This document shows positions 7,443 to 40,050 of a stretch of 64,000 nt of DNA, one piece after another (position 1 is the first letter of the stretch; the number at the start of each line of letters is the position of its first letter). Origin of the DNA: Anaerolineales bacterium (lineage in GTDB: Bacteria; Chloroflexota; Anaerolineae; Anaerolineales; Villigracilaceae); NCBI GenBank assembly GCA_030680795.1, contig JAUXUL010000025.1, positions 41,115 through 105,114 on the forward strand. Reading direction: 5' to 3'. The translations under genes and the position numbers were made by a program. Below the pieces are notes generated by a model. That model did not search any database, was not told the DNA's origin, and worked only from the letters and a program-made list of their open reading frames with translations.

Positions 7443-8921
7443 ATGCAACCAAAACTCACACTGCTAAGCGATGAGATCATCGCCCGTATTCTGGGAGAAG
7501 CCTACGAACTTCTTCTCAAGCCTGGCATCAAAGTCCAGAATGCCGAAGCGCGTGAAATGTTTGCTGCGGCTGGCGTGATCGTTGACCCGAAAACTGATGT
7601 TGCGCAAATTCCCGCCTCTCTCGTCCACAAGGCATTGGAGAGTGTACCGCGCGAATTTTATCTCTATGATTACGACGGCAATCCAACTGTACATTACGGC
7701 GGTGACTCCGTCCACTTTGACCCGGGCTCATCGGGCATCACAATACTCAACCCCGAAACACTTGAGCACGACACCACTGAAACAGAGCACCTCATTCGTT
7801 TACTAAAAGTCGCAGAACAACTTCCGCAATATGACGCGCAATCCACCGCCGTGATATGCCATGATGTTCCCAAAGAAATTCAAGACTCGTACCGCCTGTA
7901 TCTGGTTTTACTTCACTCAAAAAAACCGATCGTCACTGGCGCGTTCACAAATAAGACCGTGCAAGAGATGATAGACATGCTCTCCGTCTTCGCGGGTTCA
8001 GCGGAAGCCGCACGCGAAAAACCACGCGCCATCTTTGACGTGTGCCCCGCGCCGCCTCTTATTTGGAGCAATTTCGGCGCAGGCAATCTGATTGCGCTCG
8101 CGCGCGCAGGTGTCCCTGCGGAGATCGTCTCGGTGCCTCTTTCAGGCGCAGCGGCTCCAGTCACCATGCTTGGCACAGTTACCCAGCACACAGCGGAGTG
8201 TTTCGCGGGCATTGTCATACATCAACTTGCACATCCAGGCTCGCCGGTTGTTTGGGGCGGCGCAGCAGCGATCTTTGACATGCGCAAAGGTGCAACTCCC
8301 ATGGGCGCTGTTGAAACCACCATGCTTGATTGTTCTTACGCACAAGTCGCGAAGACGCTCAACATGCCCACGCACACCTATCTCGGCGCAACAGATTCAA
8401 AACTCGTTGACGCGCAGGCAGGACTCGAAAGCGGAATCTCAGCCATGGTCGGCGCGTTAAGCGGCATCAACATGATCTCTGGCTCAGGCATGTTGGATTT
8501 CCTTGCCTGCCACAGCGCGGAAAAACTCGTCGTGGACGCGGAAGGCATCTCCATGGCGAAGCGCATGATTGGCGGCGTGAAACTCCACACCGATACACTT
8601 GCCACAGGTTTTTTCGATCACAACATTGATTTCAAAGGCGGGGATTTCCTCAAGCAGAAAGCCACCATGCAGCTATTCCGTGAAGAACAGCACCTGCCGA
8701 GCAGCGTGATTGACCGCGACTCGATTCGCGCATGGAAAGCGGCCGGCTCATTGGATGCCTTTGGCAGAGCCAAACTCCGCGTGAACGAACTACTCGCTTC
8801 ATACAAGCGACCTGAAATTGATCCTGCCCAGGAGCGCAGACTCCACGCCTTTATGCTTGACCTCACTAAAAAAGCTGGCGTCGACATATTGCCACTGCTG
8901 GAACATTATCAACCCGCATAA
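7443..8921 (+). CDS. MttB-family (trimethylamine/betaine methyltransferase) protein, no amber codon
   Basis: MttB-like 492-aa ORF without internal stop; follows a corrinoid protein. Confidence 0.92.
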   Translation: MQPKLTLLSDEIIARILGEAYELLLKPGIKVQNAEAREMFAAAGVIVDPKTDVAQIPASLVHKALESVPREFYLYDYDGNPTVHYGGDSVHFDPGSSGITILNPETLEHDTTETEHLIRLLKVAEQLPQYDAQSTAVICHDVPKEIQDSYRLYLVLLHSKKPIVTGAFTNKTVQEMIDMLSVFAGSAEAAREKPRAIFDVCPAPPLIWSNFGAGNLIALARAGVPAEIVSVPLSGAAAPVTMLGTVTQHTAECFAGIVIHQLAHPGSPVVWGGAAAIFDMRKGATPMGAVETTMLDCSYAQVAKTLNMPTHTYLGATDSKLVDAQAGLESGISAMVGALSGINMISGSGMLDFLACHSAEKLVVDAEGISMAKRMIGGVKLHTDTLATGFFDHNIDFKGGDFLKQKATMQLFREEQHLPSSVIDRDSIRAWKAAGSLDAFGRAKLRVNELLASYKRPEIDPAQERRLHAFMLDLTKKAGVDILPLLEHYQPA

Positions 8922-8923
8922 TT

Positions 8924-10762
8924 ATGCTTAATCTCTCTCAACTTCTGCGTGTCCCACATGTAGATAGCGGATTAAAATTTGATATCTCACCCGACGGGCA
9001 GAGGTTGGTCTTTGCATGGAATAAAACAGGCAGATGGGAATTGTGGCAAATGTCATTGCGAGGAGGGCGCTCCCCCCGACGAAGCAATCCCCAACACGAC
9101 GAGGAGATTGCTTCGTCGCAACAAACGCTCCTAGCAATGACATCACACAACCAAGGGAGCAAGTTCTCCCCGCTTCATTCTCCCGATGGCACAATGCTTG
9201 CATATGCCTTGGATCTTGATGGCAGTGAGTCCTATCACATCGTCGTTCATGATCTAAGCACCAACACATGCACTGACCTCACACCCCAAATTGCCTACGC
9301 GCACCAACCAAACTTCTCGTGGTCACCTGACGGCAAAATGCTGGCCGTGCTATCTGATAAGCATGGACAATTTGCCTTGCACTTGCTCCCCGTTGACGGC
9401 ACTCCAAGTCGAATGATAAAAAATGTCTTCCACCCCTGCTGGGATGCAAAATGGTCGCCCGATGGTCAATGGATCGCAATCGAGGCTGAGTCAACTGCGA
9501 GTGACCGAAGCATTTATGTGATGCCTGTCAATCGTCCGCGCAAAGCGACTAAAGTCGCTACTACGCAATTGAAATTGAACGCGCAAAATCCTGCGTGGTC
9601 GCCTGATTCTAAATTCTTTGCCTTCTCTGGCGAAAATGGTGAATGGCACGATATTGGATTGTTCAATGTTGAGTCACAGGAAATTACATGGGTCAATCAA
9701 TCCGTTGGCGATGACATGCAACCTGCTTGGTCGCGGAGCGGAGAAGCCATCGGGTGGGTTCATTCCGAGGGCGCTGTCACCAGCTTTCAGTTTAAGAAAA
9801 GAGGCGCTGACATTAAGCAGGTTCAAGTCGGGGCGGGCGTCCATCATTTTCCGCAGTTCACTGCCAATGGCGCTGTAATTCTCTATGAAGATCCGCGTCA
9901 TCCATGTGACTTGTGGAAAATAAATCTTGAAGATGGTTCGATGCAGCAATTAACGAATTCATTGCCCGATGAGTTGTTCAATGCGGAATTCATTCAGCCT
10001 GAAGAAATTTGGTACGCAGGCAAAGATGGGACGCAAATACCCGCTTTGTTATATCGCCCGAAAAATGCAAGCAAGGATTCACCTGCTGTCGTAAATATTC
10101 ACGGCGGACCAAATTGGTTATATCAATTTTTATGGGAACCGATGATGAGTCATCTGGCTTCGCGCAGCTGGACGGTGCTCGCGCCAAATTATCGCGGCTC
10201 AACAGGCTATGGCAAAAAATGGCAGAACGCCAGCCGCTACGATATGGGCGGCGTGGACACTGACGATTGCGCAACGGGCGTGAAATATCTAATTGAGAAC
10301 GGACTGGCTGACAAAACTAAAATCGCAGTGACGGGGCGGAGCCATGGCGGCTATCTGACAATGACGTGCATGACGATGTATCCTGAATTATGGGCGGTCG
10401 GTTCGGCGATCGTGCCATTCTTGAATTGGATGAAGTCACATAAAAATTCACGGGAAGACTTGCAGCATTGGAATATCGAAAACATGGGCGACCCCGAAGA
10501 GAACCGCGAGTTATGGATCGCGCGTTCGCCCTATTTCTTTTTGGACAAAGTAAATGCGCCCGTGCAAATGATCTGCGGGGGAAATGATCCACGCTGCCCC
10601 GCGTCTGATTCGATAGATGCCCGTGATAAACTGATTGAATTGGGCAAGGAAGTTGAATTAATAATATACAAAGATGAGGGGCATTCATTTTTGGATATGG
10701 ATAATGTGATCAATGCGGAAGAAAAGTGCGTGGAGTTTTTGGCGAAGGTTTTGGAGAAATAA
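8924..10762 (+). CDS. S9 family (prolyl oligopeptidase-like) peptidase
   Basis: WD-like propeller repeats; GRSHGGYLTM nucleophile; GGNDPRCP; GHSF. Confidence 0.92.
   Translation: MLNLSQLLRVPHVDSGLKFDISPDGQRLVFAWNKTGRWELWQMSLRGGRSPRRSNPQHDEEIASSQQTLLAMTSHNQGSKFSPLHSPDGTMLAYALDLDGSESYHIVVHDLSTNTCTDLTPQIAYAHQPNFSWSPDGKMLAVLSDKHGQFALHLLPVDGTPSRMIKNVFHPCWDAKWSPDGQWIAIEAESTASDRSIYVMPVNRPRKATKVATTQLKLNAQNPAWSPDSKFFAFSGENGEWHDIGLFNVESQEITWVNQSVGDDMQPAWSRSGEAIGWVHSEGAVTSFQFKKRGADIKQVQVGAGVHHFPQFTANGAVILYEDPRHPCDLWKINLEDGSMQQLTNSLPDELFNAEFIQPEEIWYAGKDGTQIPALLYRPKNASKDSPAVVNIHGGPNWLYQFLWEPMMSHLASRSWTVLAPNYRGSTGYGKKWQNASRYDMGGVDTDDCATGVKYLIENGLADKTKIAVTGRSHGGYLTMTCMTMYPELWAVGSAIVPFLNWMKSHKNSREDLQHWNIENMGDPEENRELWIARSPYFFLDKVNAPVQMICGGNDPRCPASDSIDARDKLIELGKEVELIIYKDEGHSFLDMDNVINAEEKCVEFLAKVLEK
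9052..9141. repeat. ~90-bp palindromic repeat (GTCATTGCGAGG... family) inside the S9 peptidase gene
   Basis: gtcattgcgaggagggcg...gaagcaatcc...gattgcttcgtcgc...agcaatgac; related copies at 10767, 26591, 41539. Confidence 0.9.
9543..9564. repeat. Small palindrome agcgact-aa-agtcgct inside the S9 peptidase gene
   Basis: Encodes KATKVAT in-frame. Confidence 0.6.
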
Positions 10763-30772: not shown

Positions 30773-30828
30773 GGAATGTGGACTTTAGTCCGCTCATTTT
30801 GTGTAAAGCGGACCAAAGTCCGCATTCC
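30773..30828. repeat. Palindrome ggaatgtggactttagtccgct...agcggaccaaagtccgcattcc
   Basis: Near-perfect inverted repeat; explains the apparent N-terminal ORF extension of the next gene. Confidence 0.85.
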
Positions 30829-30846
30829 ATGTTTTTTGGAGATCCC

Positions 30847-31521
30847 ATGACCAACTCCCATCTCATATTATGCATCGCTGTTTTAGGCGGGACAGGCAAG
30901 GAAGGCAAAGGACTTGCGTATCGTTGGGCACGCGCTGGCTACCATGTACGCATTGGCTCACGAAGCGCGGATAAAGCCGTTGCCGCCGCGAATGAGATCA
31001 AGGAAATGCTTGGGGAAGGAATCTCTATCGGAGGATTGAGCAACCCCGAGGCGGCGCGCGAAGCAGACATTATCGTGTTGACAGTTCCATATTCCGCCCA
31101 TCGCAATACTTTGGAATCGGTCAAAGATGAACTCAAAGGAAAAATCCTGATAGACGTGACCGTCCCGCTTGTTCCCCCAAAAGTTGCCACCGTGCAAATG
31201 CCGGCGGCTGGCTCTGCCGCTCAGGAAGCAAAAGAGATCGTTGGTGATGACGTGCAGGTATGCGCCGCATTCCAAAACATTTCGCATGAACATTTGCTGG
31301 ACAATGCGGAAATTGAATGTGATGTGATGGTCACAGGTACCAGTAAGGAAGCCCGCGCTGAAACGATCAAACTGGTTGAAGCCGCAGGTCTGCACGGCTG
31401 GGACGCTGGCCCGATTGAAAACTCAGTCGTTATCGAGGGAATGACGAGTGTATTAATTGGGATAAATAAAAAATACGGTTCAACATACGCAGGGATCAAG
31501 ATCACAGGTGTTGAACGTTAA
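30847..31521 (+). CDS. npdG: NADPH-dependent F420 reductase
   Basis: AVLGGTGKEGKGLAYRWARAGYHVRIGSRSADKA, next to cofE. Confidence 0.92.
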   Translation: MTNSHLILCIAVLGGTGKEGKGLAYRWARAGYHVRIGSRSADKAVAAANEIKEMLGEGISIGGLSNPEAAREADIIVLTVPYSAHRNTLESVKDELKGKILIDVTVPLVPPKVATVQMPAAGSAAQEAKEIVGDDVQVCAAFQNISHEHLLDNAEIECDVMVTGTSKEARAETIKLVEAAGLHGWDAGPIENSVVIEGMTSVLIGINKKYGSTYAGIKITGVER

Positions 31522-31547: not shown

Positions 31548-32321
31548 ATGTCTCTCACTCTCACCCCTCTCCAAAACATTCCCATCATCCGCCAAGGTGA
31601 CAACTTGGCGGACATTCTTGTTGATGCCCTGCAAAGTTCTAACCTTCAATTTGCAAATGATGACATTCTTGTTATCACGCAAAAGATCGTGAGCAAAGCC
31701 GAGGGGCGCATGATAAACCTCGCAACCATTACGCCAAACGCAAGAACCATTGAACTCGCAAAAAAAGCCGATAAAGATCCGCGGGTTGTGGAACTTATGC
31801 TTCAGGAAAGCAATGAAGTGTTGCGAGTACGAAAAGGGACGATCATCGTTGAACATAAACTCGGATTCGTATGCGCCAACGCAGGCATTGACCATTCCAA
31901 TGTTGTCCCGCCTGTCGAAGCAATGAGGGCAGAAGAATATGTTTTACTTCTTCCTGAAGACCCCGATCGATCTGCACGGATTATTCGTGAACAAATCAAA
32001 CAAAAAACGGGCATGGACATCGGCGTGATGATCATTGACTCACACGGCCGCGCATGGCGCAACGGCACAGTGGGTATTTGCATCGGCTTGAGCGGACTAC
32101 CCGCGTTGATAGATGAGCGCGGCTGGAAAGACCTGTTCGGTTACACACTCAAGATCACAGTCGTTGGTGTGGCAGACGAACTCGCCGCCGCCGCATCGCT
32201 GATGATGGGGCAAGCCGCCGAAGGAACTCCCGTTGTGCATGTGCGCGGCTTCCCCTATCCTCTGGGCGAAGGCTCGCTCAAAGAACTTATCCGACCAAAA
32301 GACCAGGATATGTTCCGCTAA
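31548..32321 (+). CDS. cofE: Coenzyme F420-0:L-glutamate ligase
   Basis: DNLADILVDALQSSNLQFANDDILVITQKIVSKAEGR, SHGRAWRNGTVGICIG. Confidence 0.95.
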   Translation: MSLTLTPLQNIPIIRQGDNLADILVDALQSSNLQFANDDILVITQKIVSKAEGRMINLATITPNARTIELAKKADKDPRVVELMLQESNEVLRVRKGTIIVEHKLGFVCANAGIDHSNVVPPVEAMRAEEYVLLLPEDPDRSARIIREQIKQKTGMDIGVMIIDSHGRAWRNGTVGICIGLSGLPALIDERGWKDLFGYTLKITVVGVADELAAAASLMMGQAAEGTPVVHVRGFPYPLGEGSLKELIRPKDQDMFR

Positions 32322-32368: not shown

Positions 32369-32761
32369 ATGAAAAACTTTCCTCAAGAATATCTCGACCT
32401 GCTCAAAAACGAAACAAAAGCCTATCTCTTTCTTGCGACAACGATGCCCGATGGCTCGCCGCAAGTCACACCGATATGGTTCAATACAGATGACGACTAC
32501 ATCCTCATCAACACCAACGAGGGGCGCATAAAAGACCGCAACATGAAAGCGCGCCCGAATGTGGCGCTCGTCATTCAAGACCCCAAAACCCCTTATCGTT
32601 ATATTCAGATCCGCGGCAAGATCTCTGAGCACACCACGCAAGGCGCGGATGAACACATAAACCAACTCGCACTTAAATATGACAACGAACCGTGGAAATA
32701 CCGCGAGGGACAAAAGCGGATCATCTTCAAAATTAGACCGATTTCCATTGACCCCCATTGA
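32369..32761 (+). CDS. PPOX-class / F420-dependent pyridoxamine 5'-phosphate oxidase-like protein
   Basis: AYLFLATTMPDGSPQVTPIWFNTDDDYILINTNEGRIKDRNMKARPNVAL. Confidence 0.9.
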   Translation: MKNFPQEYLDLLKNETKAYLFLATTMPDGSPQVTPIWFNTDDDYILINTNEGRIKDRNMKARPNVALVIQDPKTPYRYIQIRGKISEHTTQGADEHINQLALKYDNEPWKYREGQKRIIFKIRPISIDPH

Positions 32762-33356
32762 TCTCCACACCTTCCTGCGGACTCGCCGCTCGATCCGCCG
32801 CTTCAAAGCGGACCTGATACCTGATTCGGTTATCGAGCGCATTCTCACCACTGCAACATACGCCCCCTCCGCGCATCACCGTCAGCCGTGGAGATTCGCT
32901 GTGATAACGGATTTATCCGTCAAAGAAAAACTTGCAGATGCAATGGGGATCGAATTCCAACGTGACCTCGAAGCCGATGCTATTTCATCTGATGCTGTAG
33001 AAAAAAAGGTTACCCGCTCTCGCGACAGGATCATCAACGCACCTGTGGTTATCATCATAAGTATAGATATGAGCGACATGGATTCATATCCAGATAAACG
33101 ACGCAAAAAAGCCGAATACATCATGGCAGCCCAATCCGCCGCAAACGCAGGCATGCAGCTGCTCCTGGCCGCACATGCAGAGGGATTGGGGAGTGTCTGG
33201 GTATGCAGTCCGCTGTTTGCACAGGAAACAGTGCAAGCTACATTGGGTTTACCAAAATCATGGGAGCCGCAAGCCATGTATTTATTGGGTTATCCAGATG
33301 AAATACCAAAAATCAAAGAGATGAAGGATATGCAAAATTTGGTGAAAATCTTTTGA
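32679..33356 (+). CDS. Nitroreductase-fold protein similar to the FbiB C-terminal (dehydro-F420-0 reductase) domain; true start uncertain, probably near 32750
   Basis: LRTRRSIRRFKADLIPDSVIERIL, YAPSAHHRQPWRFAV, AEGLGSVWVCSPLF; overlaps preceding gene. Confidence 0.87.
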   Translation: MTTNRGNTARDKSGSSSKLDRFPLTPIDLHTFLRTRRSIRRFKADLIPDSVIERILTTATYAPSAHHRQPWRFAVITDLSVKEKLADAMGIEFQRDLEADAISSDAVEKKVTRSRDRIINAPVVIIISIDMSDMDSYPDKRRKKAEYIMAAQSAANAGMQLLLAAHAEGLGSVWVCSPLFAQETVQATLGLPKSWEPQAMYLLGYPDEIPKIKEMKDMQNLVKIF

Positions 33357-33415: not shown

Positions 33416-33826
33416 ATGTCTTTCAAATTCGAACAACTGGATGTTTGGCAATTATCTCTGGATTACTCTGATTTGATTTACGGTTTGGTGGAGAAACTTC
33501 CAGACAGCGAGCGCTTCAATCTAAAGTCACAAATCACTCGCGCGGCTACATCTGTTTCGCTAAACATTGCGGAAGGGTCAACGGGTCAGAGCGACTCAGA
33601 ACAAAGCCGCTTCCTCGGTATGGCAATTCGTTCACTAATCGAAACTGTAGCCTGCCAAAGACTGATTTCCCGCCGAAAATACGTGACTGATAAAGCCTTC
33701 ATGGAGCAGTTGGATTTGAAAGCACAAGAACTCGCCAAACGTCTTCATGCCTTTCGCAAGTCACTTGCGAATCCCAAAAAATCAATTGGCGAAGAACAGG
33801 CCCTTTATGATGCCAACGAAAACTAA
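33416..33826 (+). CDS. Four-helix bundle protein (23S rRNA IVP family)
   Basis: [50 protein letters not shown]. Confidence 0.93.
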
Positions 33827-34805
33827 AGGCGCGCTCCACCGTCCACCGTCCACCGTCCACCGTCGAATAGTCGCCCTTGCGGGCGGAGTCGGCGGCGCGA
33901 AACTTGCGTACGGACTCGCCCAAATCCTTGCACCTGAAGACCTGACCGTCATCGTCAACACGGGCGATGACTTTGAACATTTAGGTTTATACATTTGCCC
34001 CGACCTGGATACGGTTTGTTATACACTGGCAGGACTGGCCAACCCCGAAACAGGCTGGGGACGTGTAAACGAAACCTGGAATACGATCTCGAATATAGAA
34101 AAACTTGGCGGACCGAATTGGTTTCGGTTGGGTGACCAGGATATCGCCACACATCTTGAAAGAACAAGAAGATTGAAAGGAGGCCAATCCCTATCTCAAA
34201 TCACAAAAGACTTCTGCAAAGCCTGGGGCATCAAACATACAGTTTTGCCGATGACCGATTCGCCTGTGCGGACAATTGTAGATACAGACGAAGGCGAGTT
34301 GGCTTTTCAGGAATATTTTGTCCACAGGCGCTGTGAGCCGAGAGTCAAAGGCTTTCGGCTCGACGGAGTCCAGGTCGCTGAACCAGTGATCGGGGCGCGC
34401 GAGGCGATTGAGTCGGCGGAGGCAATTGTCATTTGCCCGTCGAATCCCTGGGTGAGCGTGGATCCGATTCTGCGCATCATCCCCCTCACTCCAGCCCCTC
34501 TCCCTAAGGGAGAGGGGCGAAGGGATAAGGGAAAAAAAGTTGTCGCGGTTTCGCCCATTATCGGCGGAAAGGCAGTAAAAGGGCCTGCCGCAAAAATGTA
34601 TTCTGAGTTGGGTATTGAACCTTCGGCGCTGGCTGTGGCTGAGCACTATCGAGGTTTGCTAAGCGGGTTTGTGCTGGATTCGATTGATGCGGAACTTTCA
34701 ATGAAGATAGCTGTAAAAACTCTTGCCACTGATACACTTATGAAAAATCTTTCAGATCGCGCCCGATTGGCGACGGATGTGCTACACTTTATCGGGAGTT
34801 TATAA
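33810..34805 (+). CDS. cofD: 2-phospho-L-lactate transferase CofD/FbiA-like
   Basis: [50 protein letters not shown]; start probably ATG 33810. Confidence 0.94.
33836..33866. repeat. Heptamer repeat at 5' end of cofD
   Basis: ccgtcca x3 plus ccgtcg, exact 7-nt period; encodes [10 protein letters not shown]. Confidence 0.9.
34482..34529. repeat. CCCTCTCCC/GGGAGAGGG palindrome inside cofD
   Basis: ccccctcactccagcccctctccctaagggagaggggcgaagggat; encodes [16 protein letters not shown]. Confidence 0.88.
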
Positions 34806-34807
34806 AC

Positions 34808-35422
34808 ATGACACTTTGGGCAATCGTCCCTGTAAAGCCATTGCGACGAGGAAAATCTCGTTTGGCTGGAATGCTGACGGAAGATGAAAGAACCGTATTA
34901 AACCAGGAACTTTTGGAGCGAACACTAAAAACACTTTCAAGCTTGAAAGAGTTGGATCAGGTTTTAGTAGTGAGCCGCGACCCACATGCGTTGACCATTG
35001 CACGTAACCACGGCGCAAAGACCGTGCAGGAAGATGGTCAACCGCACTTGAATACCGCGCTGACGCGTGCGACAGTTGTGGCACAGGTCCATGCAATACA
35101 AGGCGTTTTGATCCTGCCTGCGGATTTACCTTTGCTTACTCAAGAAGATGTGCTTACATTAATTGACCGCGCGGCGAAACCGCCTGTGGTTGTGATCGCG
35201 CCCGACAGGCATGGCAAAGGGACAAATGCGCTGCTCATGGTTCCTGCCGGGCAAATTGAATATGATTTCGGCAAGGGTTCCTTCCAACGTCATTGCGACC
35301 GCGTAACAAAATCTGGTGCAAGGCTGGAGATCGTTGAATTGCCTTCTCTTGGATTGGACCTGGATTTGCCAGAAGATCTGGAAATGGTACGTAAGTTGGA
35401 AAGGATAAAAGAGCAAGGATGA
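34808..35422 (+). CDS. cofC: 2-phospho-L-lactate guanylyltransferase CofC/FbiD-like
   Basis: AIVPVKPLRRGKSRLAGMLTEDER, ILPADLPLLTQEDV, GTNALLM. Confidence 0.93.
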   Translation: MTLWAIVPVKPLRRGKSRLAGMLTEDERTVLNQELLERTLKTLSSLKELDQVLVVSRDPHALTIARNHGAKTVQEDGQPHLNTALTRATVVAQVHAIQGVLILPADLPLLTQEDVLTLIDRAAKPPVVVIAPDRHGKGTNALLMVPAGQIEYDFGKGSFQRHCDRVTKSGARLEIVELPSLGLDLDLPEDLEMVRKLERIKEQG

Positions 35423-35554: not shown

Positions 35555-36553
35555 ATGACCGAACGTGTTGCCCTCTACCTGCAAGATTCGCATGACCTGC
35601 GTGATGGACTGGATTACGCCAAATACGCAGAGGAAAAAGGTTTTGAAGCCGTATGGCAAGCCGAGAGTCGTTTGGTGCGCGATGCGATCGTGCCGATGGC
35701 GGCTTATGCTGCGGTGACCGACAAAATTAAAGTCGGCTCAGGTGTGATCAACAACTGGACGCGCAATATCGGATTACTTGCCGCCACTTTCCTAACGTTA
35801 GATGACCTTGCTCCGAATCGCATCATCTGCGGGATAGGCGCCTGGTGGGATCCGCTGGCGAAGAATGTCGGTATTGACCGCAAGAAGCCCCTGCTGGCCA
35901 TGCGCGAAACTGTCCAAGTAATGCGCAGGTTGCTGAACATGGAACGTGTCACCTTTCACGGCGAATTCCACCACGTGGACGGCATCGAACTGGACGTAGT
36001 GCATGGCCGCCGGGAACCGCGCAACGTGCCGATCATGATCGGAGCGACCGGCGACTTGATGATGGAAATGACAGGCGAGATCGCAGACGGCTGTGTGCTG
36101 AATTACTGCGTCGCGCCCGAATACAATGACAAAGCGCTTGAGCTGCTTGAAAAAGGTGCAAAAAAAGCCGGGCGCAAAATCGAAGACATTGATCGTCCTC
36201 AGTTGATCGTGTGCTCGGTGGACGAAGATCATAACAAGGCAATTGAGTACACCAAAGAACTGCTCTGCCAATATCTCGCGCAACAACCACACATCGCCAA
36301 GGCTTCGAATGTTTCGCAGGAAGTCATTAGCAATATTCAATCCACCTTGGGTTGGCCTGCCACAAAGGAACAGATCAACAAAGCCAAACACTTCGTCCCT
36401 GACGAATTGGTTCACAAGATCACCGCTTCTGGCACACCCGCCGAAGCCCGCGCCAAGGTTACGGAATATGTCAAGCGCGGATGCACCTGCCCCATTCTGT
36501 ATCCCGTCGGTGGGAATTTCAAGTTGTTGATTGATACGTTCGCGCAAAAGTAA
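35555..36553 (+). CDS. LLM class F420-dependent oxidoreductase
   Basis: TIM-barrel LLM features: [52 protein letters not shown]. Confidence 0.92.
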
Positions 36554-36739: not shown

Positions 36740-38725
36740 ATGAGCGAACTTGCCCGACCTGTGGGTATTGGCTTTGCTGCGCGCGGCAAAGTATCTGATG
36801 TTGTACGCTGGGCAGATAATGCCCAACAACGCGGCATACACTCGGTGTGGATGCATGATAGTTTGTACGAACGCGACGCGGTCAGTTACGCGTCCGCGAT
36901 CGCAGCGCAGGTACCGAACATCCGCGTGGCGCTCGGCGCGTTGAGTTCATACACGCGCACGCCGGCTCTGATCGCCATGACCATTTCCGCGTTGGATGAA
37001 ATGGCTCCAGGGCGGATCATTTTAGGAATGGGGACAGCCCTGCCATTGCGTCTCGCGCAACTGGGAATTCCATACAAACCAGACGAAGGCGTTGAAAATG
37101 TTAGCAAGGCGATTGATTTTATCCGCGCAATGTGGGCGGGACAACGCATCCCATCTGCGACGCCAAACCTGCCGCCCATTCAAGCGATGTTCCCGCCTGT
37201 TCATCGCGTGCCGGTTTATATCGCTGCGTATCGAACCCCCTTCCTGCAACTCGCTGGTGAAAAAGCGGACGGCTACCTGGCTCGCCCGGCAGAATCAATC
37301 CCCAACATGCAGCGCCTGATCACAAAATTACGCAAATCGTCGGTTGAGACGGGACGCGATGAAAATGTTGTGGATGTGGCAGGTTATCTGCTTACACATG
37401 TTGACAAGTCACGCCACGAAGCGTTAAACCGCGCCAAACGCGAACCGTTCGTCATCTACATGATGAGCGTGCTATCGAATTTCTCGTTGGAACAAGCGGG
37501 ATTCGAACCCGCCTTACGCGACCAGATCATGGCAGCATGGCGCGCGGAAGATTATCACAAAGCCGCACAGATCATCCCGGATGACATGCTCGACACGTTC
37601 ATGTTGTGCGGCACGCCTGAAGAGGTGGCTGAAGGCGCGGCAAAATTCAACGAAGCGGGCATGAACACGCCCATCATCCAACCCGTTATCCAGGAAGACG
37701 ACCAGGAAGAACTCGCGCTGGAAGCCGCGGCGTTGTACGGCTCGGTGGCTGTCAGGGAGGCGGTCACTGCACGGGAAACGGCAACAGTTTTGAGGTCCGA
37801 AGGCGAGCGCTTGAACGTCTTCGAACGCGCATGGCGTCGGTTTGGCGCGTGGACCGAGATCGCGCGTCCGTTCTCATTCACCGCATCCGCAATCCCAGTG
37901 CTGAGCGCAGGCGCGCTGGCTTTCATCCAAAATAAATTCTCATTCCTTCCATTTATCATTTCGCTTGCGGCTTCGGTTTTACTGCATGTCGGCACAAATG
38001 TGACCAATGAAATTTACGATGTGCGTAACGGCATCGACTCGATCACATCCCCGCGCGCAAGCCGGGCTTTGCTTAAAGGACGGTTGACCGAAAGCGAGGC
38101 GTTTGGACTCGTACGCGGGTCTTTCATATTGGCAATTCTCTTCGGCATCGCGTTAATCGCCATGCGCGGCTGGCAGGTAGCGCTGCTTGGGTTTTTAGGA
38201 TTGACTCTCGGCTATGGATACACCGCCCCACCCTTCCAATATAAATATAAAGCGATCGGCTTGCCGGTAGTCTTCATATTGATGGGACCCTTGATGGTGA
38301 TCGGCGCATATTACACAACCACCGGCGGGTTCGATTGGTCGGCGCTGATCGTCAGCATTCCAATTGGCTTATTGGTCACAGCCATCCTGCACGGCAATGA
38401 ATGGCGCGACATCACCGACGACGCGCGTTACGGCATTGGCACGCTCTCCGCACTAATGGGACGCAAGTGGGCGCACATTGTTTATGTTTCGCTGGTCACC
38501 AGCGCGTATCTTGTGGTTGTCATCGGAATTCTCGCGCACGCCCTGCCCGCAACAAGTTCACTGGCGTTTCTCTCCCTGCCTTTCTTTGTCTATTTGGTTG
38601 GAAACTCCCAACTTGGCATCCAAGGGCAGCAGCGCGCCATCGCAAAAATCGATCTTGAAACTGCAAAACTCCACGCCACCTTCGGCATTTTATATATCGT
38701 GGGCTTGATGATGGGAAAGGTGTAA
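36740..38725 (+). CDS. Fusion: N-terminal LLM (F420-dependent) oxidoreductase and C-terminal UbiA/MenA prenyltransferase
   Basis: N-term GRIILGMGTALPLRLAQLGI, VPVYIAAYRTPFLQLAGEKADGYL; C-term NVTNEIYDVRNGIDSITSPRASRALLKGRL, GYGYTAPPFQYKYKAIGLPVVFILMGPLMVIGAYY, NEWRDITDDARYGIGTLSALMG; one uninterrupted ORF. Confidence 0.9.
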   Translation: MSELARPVGIGFAARGKVSDVVRWADNAQQRGIHSVWMHDSLYERDAVSYASAIAAQVPNIRVALGALSSYTRTPALIAMTISALDEMAPGRIILGMGTALPLRLAQLGIPYKPDEGVENVSKAIDFIRAMWAGQRIPSATPNLPPIQAMFPPVHRVPVYIAAYRTPFLQLAGEKADGYLARPAESIPNMQRLITKLRKSSVETGRDENVVDVAGYLLTHVDKSRHEALNRAKREPFVIYMMSVLSNFSLEQAGFEPALRDQIMAAWRAEDYHKAAQIIPDDMLDTFMLCGTPEEVAEGAAKFNEAGMNTPIIQPVIQEDDQEELALEAAALYGSVAVREAVTARETATVLRSEGERLNVFERAWRRFGAWTEIARPFSFTASAIPVLSAGALAFIQNKFSFLPFIISLAASVLLHVGTNVTNEIYDVRNGIDSITSPRASRALLKGRLTESEAFGLVRGSFILAILFGIALIAMRGWQVALLGFLGLTLGYGYTAPPFQYKYKAIGLPVVFILMGPLMVIGAYYTTTGGFDWSALIVSIPIGLLVTAILHGNEWRDITDDARYGIGTLSALMGRKWAHIVYVSLVTSAYLVVVIGILAHALPATSSLAFLSLPFFVYLVGNSQLGIQGQQRAIAKIDLETAKLHATFGILYIVGLMMGKV

Positions 38726-39357
38726 TGAAAAAATCCCTACCCATGCTTGGGTTTGCAACAGCCCTGGCCGCGATCCTCTTCGCACTGACATTTTGCGGCC
38801 CAAAGAAAAAATTTTGGGATCGCATGACAGGAACAGGACTCTCCCTCGGCGGATTGTCGCTGGCGACCCAGCCGGAATTACGCCGCACCAAAATCGGACT
38901 CAAAGAGATCATCCTTGGGCTTGGGTCGGCCGCGGCGTTATATGGCATTTTCCACGCTGGAGACCGCATCTCGCGCCAGATCGTGCCAAACGGCGGAAGA
39001 CAAATCGAAGACATTTACGCGCTCAAACGCATTCGCCCAAAAAAGGAATTGATGATGAGGCTTGGCTTCATCATCGGCCCCGCAGAGGAATTTTTCTGGC
39101 GCGGCTTTTTGCAGGACGGTTTGATGAAAAAATTTGGACGCGTGTGGGGGTCGCTCATGGCAATCGCAGCGTATGGCGGGGTTCACATCGCCAGCGGCAA
39201 CTTCATGTTGGTCGGCGCGGCAACAGTGGCGGGCGCATTCTGGGGCGGCTTGTATGCGCTGGGCTTTCCTCTCGGCGCGCTGATTGTCAGTCACATCGCC
39301 TGGGATAACATTATCTTCCTCATCGCGCCAACCACAAAACTGGAAGAAGAAAAATAA
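38725..39357 (+). CDS. CPBP family intramembrane metalloprotease
   Basis: PAEEFFWRGFLQDGL, GGVHIASGNFM, SHIAWDNIIF. Confidence 0.88.
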   Translation: MKKSLPMLGFATALAAILFALTFCGPKKKFWDRMTGTGLSLGGLSLATQPELRRTKIGLKEIILGLGSAAALYGIFHAGDRISRQIVPNGGRQIEDIYALKRIRPKKELMMRLGFIIGPAEEFFWRGFLQDGLMKKFGRVWGSLMAIAAYGGVHIASGNFMLVGAATVAGAFWGGLYALGFPLGALIVSHIAWDNIIFLIAPTTKLEEEK

Positions 39358-40050
39358 ATGTCGCTACTCACAGGCAATGAACGCGCGGCATACGTCCAAA
39401 ATATGTTCACGCGTATCGCGCATCGCTACGATTTGATGAATCGCCTGATGACCGGCGGACAGGATATCCGCTGGAGGAAACAAGTCATCAAACTCGCGCG
39501 GATGGATGTCAACGCCTCATTACTTGACCTGGGAACCGGTACCGGTGATTTGGCACGCGAGGCCGTTTTGCAGTTTCCCCAGGCCAAGGTGACCGCCGCA
39601 GACTTTACCCTCGAAATGATGCGCGTGGGACAAAAGACCAGCCCGCTCAACTTCTCCAGCGCAGATGCGCTCCGCCTGCCCTTCAAGGACTCAACCTTTG
39701 ACGCAGTCATTTCTGCCTTTCTCATGCGCAACGTGATTGATTTACAAAAGGGGATCGAGGAACAATTCCGCGTGCTAAAGGAAGGCGGACGAATTGTCAT
39801 TCTCGACACCACGCACCCGAAAAAAAATATCCTCTCCCCGTTTATCTGGATCCACATGCACTTCATCATCCCGGCACTCGGCGGTTTGTTGACAGGCGTC
39901 AGCGAAGCCTATCGTTACCTGCCTGAAACCACAGAAGAGTTCGTCAACGCGGAGGAAATGGTCGCGTGCATGGCTTTGGCGGGATTTAAACAGATTGGAT
40001 TTAAGCGATTGATGTTTGGAACGATTGCTATTAACTGGGGAGAAAAGTAA
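39358..40050 (+). CDS. ubiE: UbiE/MenG-type C-methyltransferase
   Basis: VQNMFTRIAHRYDLMNRLMTGGQDIRWR, LDLGTGTGDLA, FGTIAINWG. Confidence 0.92.
   Translation: MSLLTGNERAAYVQNMFTRIAHRYDLMNRLMTGGQDIRWRKQVIKLARMDVNASLLDLGTGTGDLAREAVLQFPQAKVTAADFTLEMMRVGQKTSPLNFSSADALRLPFKDSTFDAVISAFLMRNVIDLQKGIEEQFRVLKEGGRIVILDTTHPKKNILSPFIWIHMHFIIPALGGLLTGVSEAYRYLPETTEEFVNAEEMVACMALAGFKQIGFKRLMFGTIAINWGEK

Follow-up and report, generated by a model that had tools for sequence, protein, structure and literature searches.

The gene described here lies in a 64,000-nucleotide stretch (the window) of a contig (JAUXUL010000025.1) from an Anaerolineales bacterium. It occupies positions 36740..38725 of the forward strand, begins with ATG, contains no internal stops and encodes a protein of 661 amino acids. 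Residues 1–335 (36740..37744) form the LLM half, an F420-type TIM barrel resembling Mer, and residues 366–661 (37835..38722) form a UbiA/MenA-like membrane half. In Pfam, residues 17–309 match the Bac_luciferase family (PF00296, E 4.8e-47) and residues 385–617 match UbiA (PF01040, E 9.9e-31), both over the cut-off. The original prediction of a single open reading frame (ORF) joining an LLM oxidoreductase to a MenA-like prenyltransferase is borne out by the 661 codons and the two domains. The linker between the halves (residues 336–365, 37745..37834) is unconserved. In NCBIfam the C-terminal part is closest to MenA models and the N-terminal part to models of Mer and F420 LLM enzymes, none of these matches reaching its cut-off. 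No PHROGs family matched the query, no plasmid record covered 80% of it, and promoter- and terminator-like sites at the locus were not clearly above those in shuffled sequences.

Upstream on the same strand is an F420 locus, as had been proposed. NADPH-F420 reductase NpdG (30778..31521, TIGR01915), CofE (31548..32321, TIGR01916), CofD (33747..34805, TIGR01819) and CofC (34808..35422, TIGR03552) are all over the cut-offs of their models; the CofD match holds from residue 41, and the listed start of this gene is probably too far upstream. A nitroreductase similar to the C-terminal domain of FbiB (32679..33356) scores 149.8 bits against TIGR03553, which is below the cut-off. The locus ends with a separate LLM oxidoreductase, LLM1 (35555..36553), which is 26% identical to the LLM half of the fusion. 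Downstream, a gene for a CPBP/Rce1-like membrane protease (38725..39357, forward strand, PF02517) overlaps the stop codon of the fusion by one base, and the UbiE/MenG methyltransferase gene (39358..40050, forward strand; 206.9 bits against TIGR01934, over cut-off) follows it with a gap of 0. UbiE/MenG is thus nearby, as predicted, but does not adjoin the fusion directly, because the CPBP gene intervenes.

The CPBP gene is the conserved neighbour of the fusion. It lies downstream on the same strand at 72 of 81 loci (72 of the 77 with room for one), mostly at a spacing of no more than 150 bases and frequently with an overlap, and the EExxxR and His motifs of its product are retained across the 72 loci. 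UbiE/MenG is found close to the fusion at 11 loci, not always in the same arrangement. Other recurrent neighbours look like lineage synteny, and ring-forming or hydroxylase genes do not recur near the fusion among the loci of relatives.

Relatives were sought in one genome per species, covering 85,462 species. This gave 95 confirmed places, of which 80, at 47–82% identity, were kept. The kept loci are labelled as Chloroflexota (Anaerolineae, Limnocylindrales and Dehalococcoidia), Dormibacterota and a few Actinomycetota metagenome-assembled genomes (MAGs). In all 80, each from another species, the junction between the LLM and UbiA halves lies inside one ORF; three loci (L111, L113 and L115) are truncated by contig ends, and three (L043, L077 and L114) have frame slips, none of them at the junction. 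Among 300 evenly drawn Chloroflexota genomes, each at least 85% complete, the fusion is present in 38 at E≤1e-60, and no separate LLM and UbiA genes were found at this threshold. A frame error or assembly artefact has next to no chance of explaining the ORF and is ruled out by these results, since 80 independent assemblies contain an ORF that spans the junction, with linkers of many lengths, and no split pair occurs in the 300 genomes.

Both halves are strongly conserved and the linker is variable. Among 78 sequences, conservation of 97% or more is reached by 65 residues in positions 1–340 and 72 in positions 366–661, and by no residue in positions 341–365. The linker ranges from 21 to 85 residues among relatives. 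The evolutionary distances of the two halves are correlated (r 0.77), as expected under joint inheritance. Judged from these comparisons, the fusion is an old, conserved architecture in Chloroflexota and their relatives.

The solved proteins nearest to the LLM half in sequence are the F420-dependent methylene-H4MPT reductases (Mer). An AlphaFold2 model of this half (mean pLDDT 88) resembles Mer with F420 (1z69) at a TMt of 0.90, and F420 enzymes make up all of its first 28 structure matches. The match to the Mer family models is well below cut-off, at 129.8 against 348.7 bits for TIGR03555 and 147.9 against 276 bits for PRK02271. Mutants of Mer have been described, and Glu6 is its catalytic residue (PMC11094777). 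In the sequence alignment the position of Glu6 is occupied by Gly11 (36770..36772, Gly in 75 of 78 sequences), and Asp96, Gln178 and Phe233 correspond to Leu101, Tyr164 and Tyr240, so that all four substrate positions of Mer are changed. The LLM half also differs from Mer in being joined to a membrane domain. Since the catalytic Glu is missing, the LLM half is not a Mer and is unlikely to carry out the Mer reaction. A set of near-invariant residues is new relative to Mer (H39, E44, R45, D46, P102, R104, Q107, R182, P183, E185, S186, K233 and R234), which implies another conserved reaction. Loss of the F420-binding residues would have counted against the proposal; as far as this could be judged, the Gly-X site at which F420-dependent LLM enzymes have a non-prolyl cis-peptide bulge beneath the cofactor, placed from sequence only at Gly66-Ala67 (36935..36940; Gly in 76 and Ala in 73 of 78 sequences), and the Mer-like fold are kept. 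F420 is the likely cofactor of this half.

The UbiA half contains two Asp motifs. In the first, NEIYDVRNGID (residues 423–433, 38006..38038), N423, D427 and D433 are invariant in 50 sequences; in the second, NEWRDITDD (residues 553–561, 38396..38422), N553, R556, D557 and D561 are invariant in the same number. The best family-model matches are all to MenA models. In the window this half scores 82.8 bits against the menA model TIGR00751, for which the cut-off is 102.15; the description of a full UbiA/MenA domain therefore holds for UbiA and has to be weakened to MenA-like for MenA. The best of 50 fusion members matches the MenA model with E 2.3e-33, and some members may exceed the TIGR00751 cut-off. 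The standalone MenA of a sister genome is 35% identical to the UbiA half over 246 residues. In the tree the UbiA halves form their own clade beside standalone MenA (SH-aLRT 97), with long basal branches that leave the exact placement unsure. The UbiA half thus resembles MenA (TIGR00751, PRK06080) in its fold, Asp motifs, identity and place near ubiE, whereas the fusion differs in its LLM domain, separate clade and sub-cut-off score, and in that its carriers mostly lack MenB, MenD and Mqn proteins. Among solved structures, sequence comparison links the UbiA half to a single one, the menaquinone-4 synthase UBIAD1 (8djk, E 3e-26), but this is an animal enzyme without a redox domain. Divergent UbiA-family proteins of about 340–350 amino acids are also found in unrelated surroundings (loci L170, 9146-10165; L171, 9417-10451; L173, 9213-11433), and occur in tandem in genome G345.

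In the genus and family of the window, the slot before ubiE is filled by a men block with menA, by an ABC importer with menA, or by the fusion with the CPBP gene. Genomes of the same genus contain the F420 genes (npdG, cofE, nitroreductase, cofD, cofC and LLM1), then differing cassettes, then ubiE. The men block of G001 consists of genes for TetR, isochorismate synthase, menD, menB, menE, DAHP synthase, menH and menA; men genes, menA and ubiE are likewise present in G022. An importer of the NMT1/THI5-like type accompanies menA in five genomes (G033, G026, G017, G028 and G014), and in four others (G021, G258, G131 and G338) importer, menA and ubiE are found with the F420 genes absent from the stretch examined. 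MenD was not found in seven of the importer-bearing genomes (G033, G026, G017, G021, G258, G131 and G338), nor was MqnA/D in the same seven, all but one of which were covered. The fusion and CPBP gene occupy the slot in the window and in G345, where LLM1 is about 10 kb away (L152).

The importer comprises a binding protein, an ATPase and a permease (L145, 8403-10993, with the permease at 8403-9143; likewise L146, L147, L149, L150, L160, L161, L167 and L169). Its gene context suggests that it may bring in DHNA or some other precursor of quinones. The genes between LLM1 and menA in sister genomes had also been considered as futalosine genes; NCBIfam identifies them as men genes (G001) and an ABC importer (G033), and a search with PF02621 for MqnA/D in the sister genomes found none.

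The UbiE of the window has its nearest counterpart in G001 (86%), which belongs to the same genus and has the men block. The UbiE of G345 clusters with its own genus, whereas the fusions of the window and G345 are nearest to each other (82%); the UbiE tree is small and its support values are modest. The simplest reading of these sequences is that ubiE is resident and the partner module has been swapped. As ubiE remains constant while its partner changes, the fusion probably supplies the substrate of UbiE.

All 38 carriers contain a marker of F420 synthesis, CofD in 31 and CofE in the other 7. CofD is weakly enriched (31/38 carriers against 168/262 other genomes, p 0.04, uncorrected for kinship). 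A CofH-like FO synthase was not found at E≤1e-10 in any of 20 genomes, including that of the window, and FO may be scavenged or be the product of an unrecognised enzyme. CofE is present in 18 of these 20 genomes and CofD in several.

Haem-copper oxidase subunit I is present in 36 of the 38 carriers, and a quinone is therefore expected. MenB and MenD were detected in the same two carriers and MqnA/D in none of the 38; these counts come from draft genomes with strict thresholds for MenB and MenD, and the quinone markers searched for were those of the Men and futalosine routes. For 24 carriers the fusion is the sole strong MenA-like gene, every other candidate scoring no more than 100 bits; the oxidase is present in each of these genomes, and MenB, MenD and MqnA/D were found in none. 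They include the genome of the window, which is 97% complete and encodes two other UbiA-type proteins, of 94 and 84 bits, that fall outside the MenA group in the tree. In 12 of the 38 carriers there is a second MenA-like gene, scoring over 120 bits. G326 (L165) and G397 (L164) contain a full men cluster and a standalone menA together with the fusion, which is thus not solely a replacement for a lost MenA. A 2026 survey has reported that many Chloroflexota lineages lack a known quinone pathway, and suggested undiscovered quinones (PMC13386864).

We propose, tentatively and at somewhat less than an even chance, that the fusion is a two-headed enzyme of quinone biosynthesis, which combines MenA-type prenylation with reduction of the head group by F420H2. 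The UbiA half would add a polyprenyl tail to an acceptor of the naphthoquinol type, performing the job of MenA for the resident UbiE/MenG. Module exchange beside ubiE points to this MenA-like role, since the fusion would have to supply a demethylquinol compatible with UbiE. With F420H2 as donor, the LLM half would reduce the quinone head group, whether in the acceptor before prenylation or in the demethylquinone product, the quinol of which UbiE would then methylate. The second option would be the F420 counterpart of the step catalysed by NDC1 in phylloquinone synthesis, where a separate reductase acts between MenA and MenG in plants and cyanobacteria (PMC8133638). The CPBP protein would be a conserved partner of the fusion. 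The acceptor could be scavenged DHNA, to which the importer-bearing sisters hint, or could come from an unrecognised pathway; no acceptor-forming genes were found. That the protein binds F420 and carries out both reactions, and which acceptor it uses and from where, is inferred.

The predicted link between F420 and quinone synthesis is supported, as are the F420 locus upstream and the nearness of UbiE. The two-headed enzyme is favoured by the conservation of the fusion as a single ORF with invariant Asp motifs, by the F420 enzymes among the structure matches, by the F420 markers in every carrier and by the oxidase in 36 of them. Known enzymes offer partial parallels. NDC1 shares the role proposed here, reducing the quinone after MenA and before MenG, but is a stand-alone type II NAD(P)H dehydrogenase that uses FAD and NAD(P)H and has an unrelated fold. 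Menaquinone reduction dependent on F420H2 has been described for Ddn, which has another fold (PMC8498797). Ddn acts on F420H2 and a naphthoquinone, the proposed substrates of the fusion, but is a split beta-barrel and is respiratory rather than biosynthetic. The weak enrichment of CofD, the failure to find CofH, the two carriers with a full Men pathway, the 12 with a second MenA-like gene, the modest support of the UbiE tree and the failure to find acceptor-forming genes count against the two-headed enzyme.

The genomes without Men or Mqn markers also raise the possibility that the fusion stands at the centre of a quinone pathway not yet described, in which the acceptor is not DHNA, the LLM half helps to shape the ring and the quinone is of a type unrecorded in these bacteria. 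The 24 fusion-only carriers with an oxidase, the separate position of the UbiA half in the tree, its sub-cut-off score in the window and the survey of Chloroflexota are all in keeping with this, but we consider it unlikely. The UbiE beside the fusion is an ortholog of the UbiE adjacent to menA in sisters, suggesting a product of the menaquinone kind; sisters that lack men genes still have a true MenA together with an importer, which offers a scavenged precursor as an alternative; and ring-forming and hydroxylase genes do not recur beside the fusion. Similarly doubtful is a formulation in which the fusion and the CPBP protein would provide an F420H2-coupled prenyltransferase central to a quinone pathway of aerobic Chloroflexota and Dormibacterota, with an acceptor derived from neither the Men nor the futalosine route.

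The acceptors of UbiA enzymes are many, and the fusion could instead prenylate a non-quinone substrate, with the proximity of UbiE due to chance. That UbiE is in reach at only 11 loci and that two genomes also have the full Men pathway would fit, but UbiE adjoins the fusion in more than one arrangement, the fusion occupies the place of menA beside a resident ubiE, and its top family matches are MenA models throughout; prenylation outside quinone synthesis is quite improbable.

Partly saturated menaquinones are known, and attachment and reduction of the tail within a single protein would be economical. The suggestion that the LLM half acts on the prenyl tail and saturates its double bonds found no specific support, however, and we regard it as very unlikely. 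Enzymes known to reduce quinone tails belong to the FAD-dependent geranylgeranyl-reductase type, the chemistry does not favour passing a hydride from F420H2 to an isolated alkene, and no LLM enzyme is known to do so. Reduction of the head group fits the gene order better than reduction of the prenyl chain.

We give equally little credence to the LLM half being an FMN enzyme independent of F420, or a non-catalytic regulatory or scaffolding part. Replacement of the four Mer substrate positions and the failure to find CofH in the carriers examined are compatible with such a role, but the closest sequences and folds are F420 enzymes, and the 65 highly conserved residues with their new invariant polar set imply catalysis.

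Full-text literature searches found no described LLM-UbiA enzyme, in agreement with the claim that no described enzyme was known to have this architecture. The nearest precedent for a redox enzyme joined to UbiA is the IspH-UbiA fusion (PMC4746011), but there the redox part is the iron-sulphur protein IspH and not an F420-type LLM enzyme. The parts of the protein are of known kinds; what appears to be new is its architecture and its tie to genomes in which no quinone pathway was detected. By its distribution, the fusion is a concrete candidate for a missing part of quinone synthesis in its carriers. As a single defined gene carried by respiring members without Men or Mqn markers, it makes the question of the missing quinone pathway directly testable. 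If the proposal is true, an F420-type reductase would be physically coupled to attachment of the quinone tail, a coupling without parallel in the literature searched, and annotators would be warned that lineages without a recognisable pathway may still make quinones.
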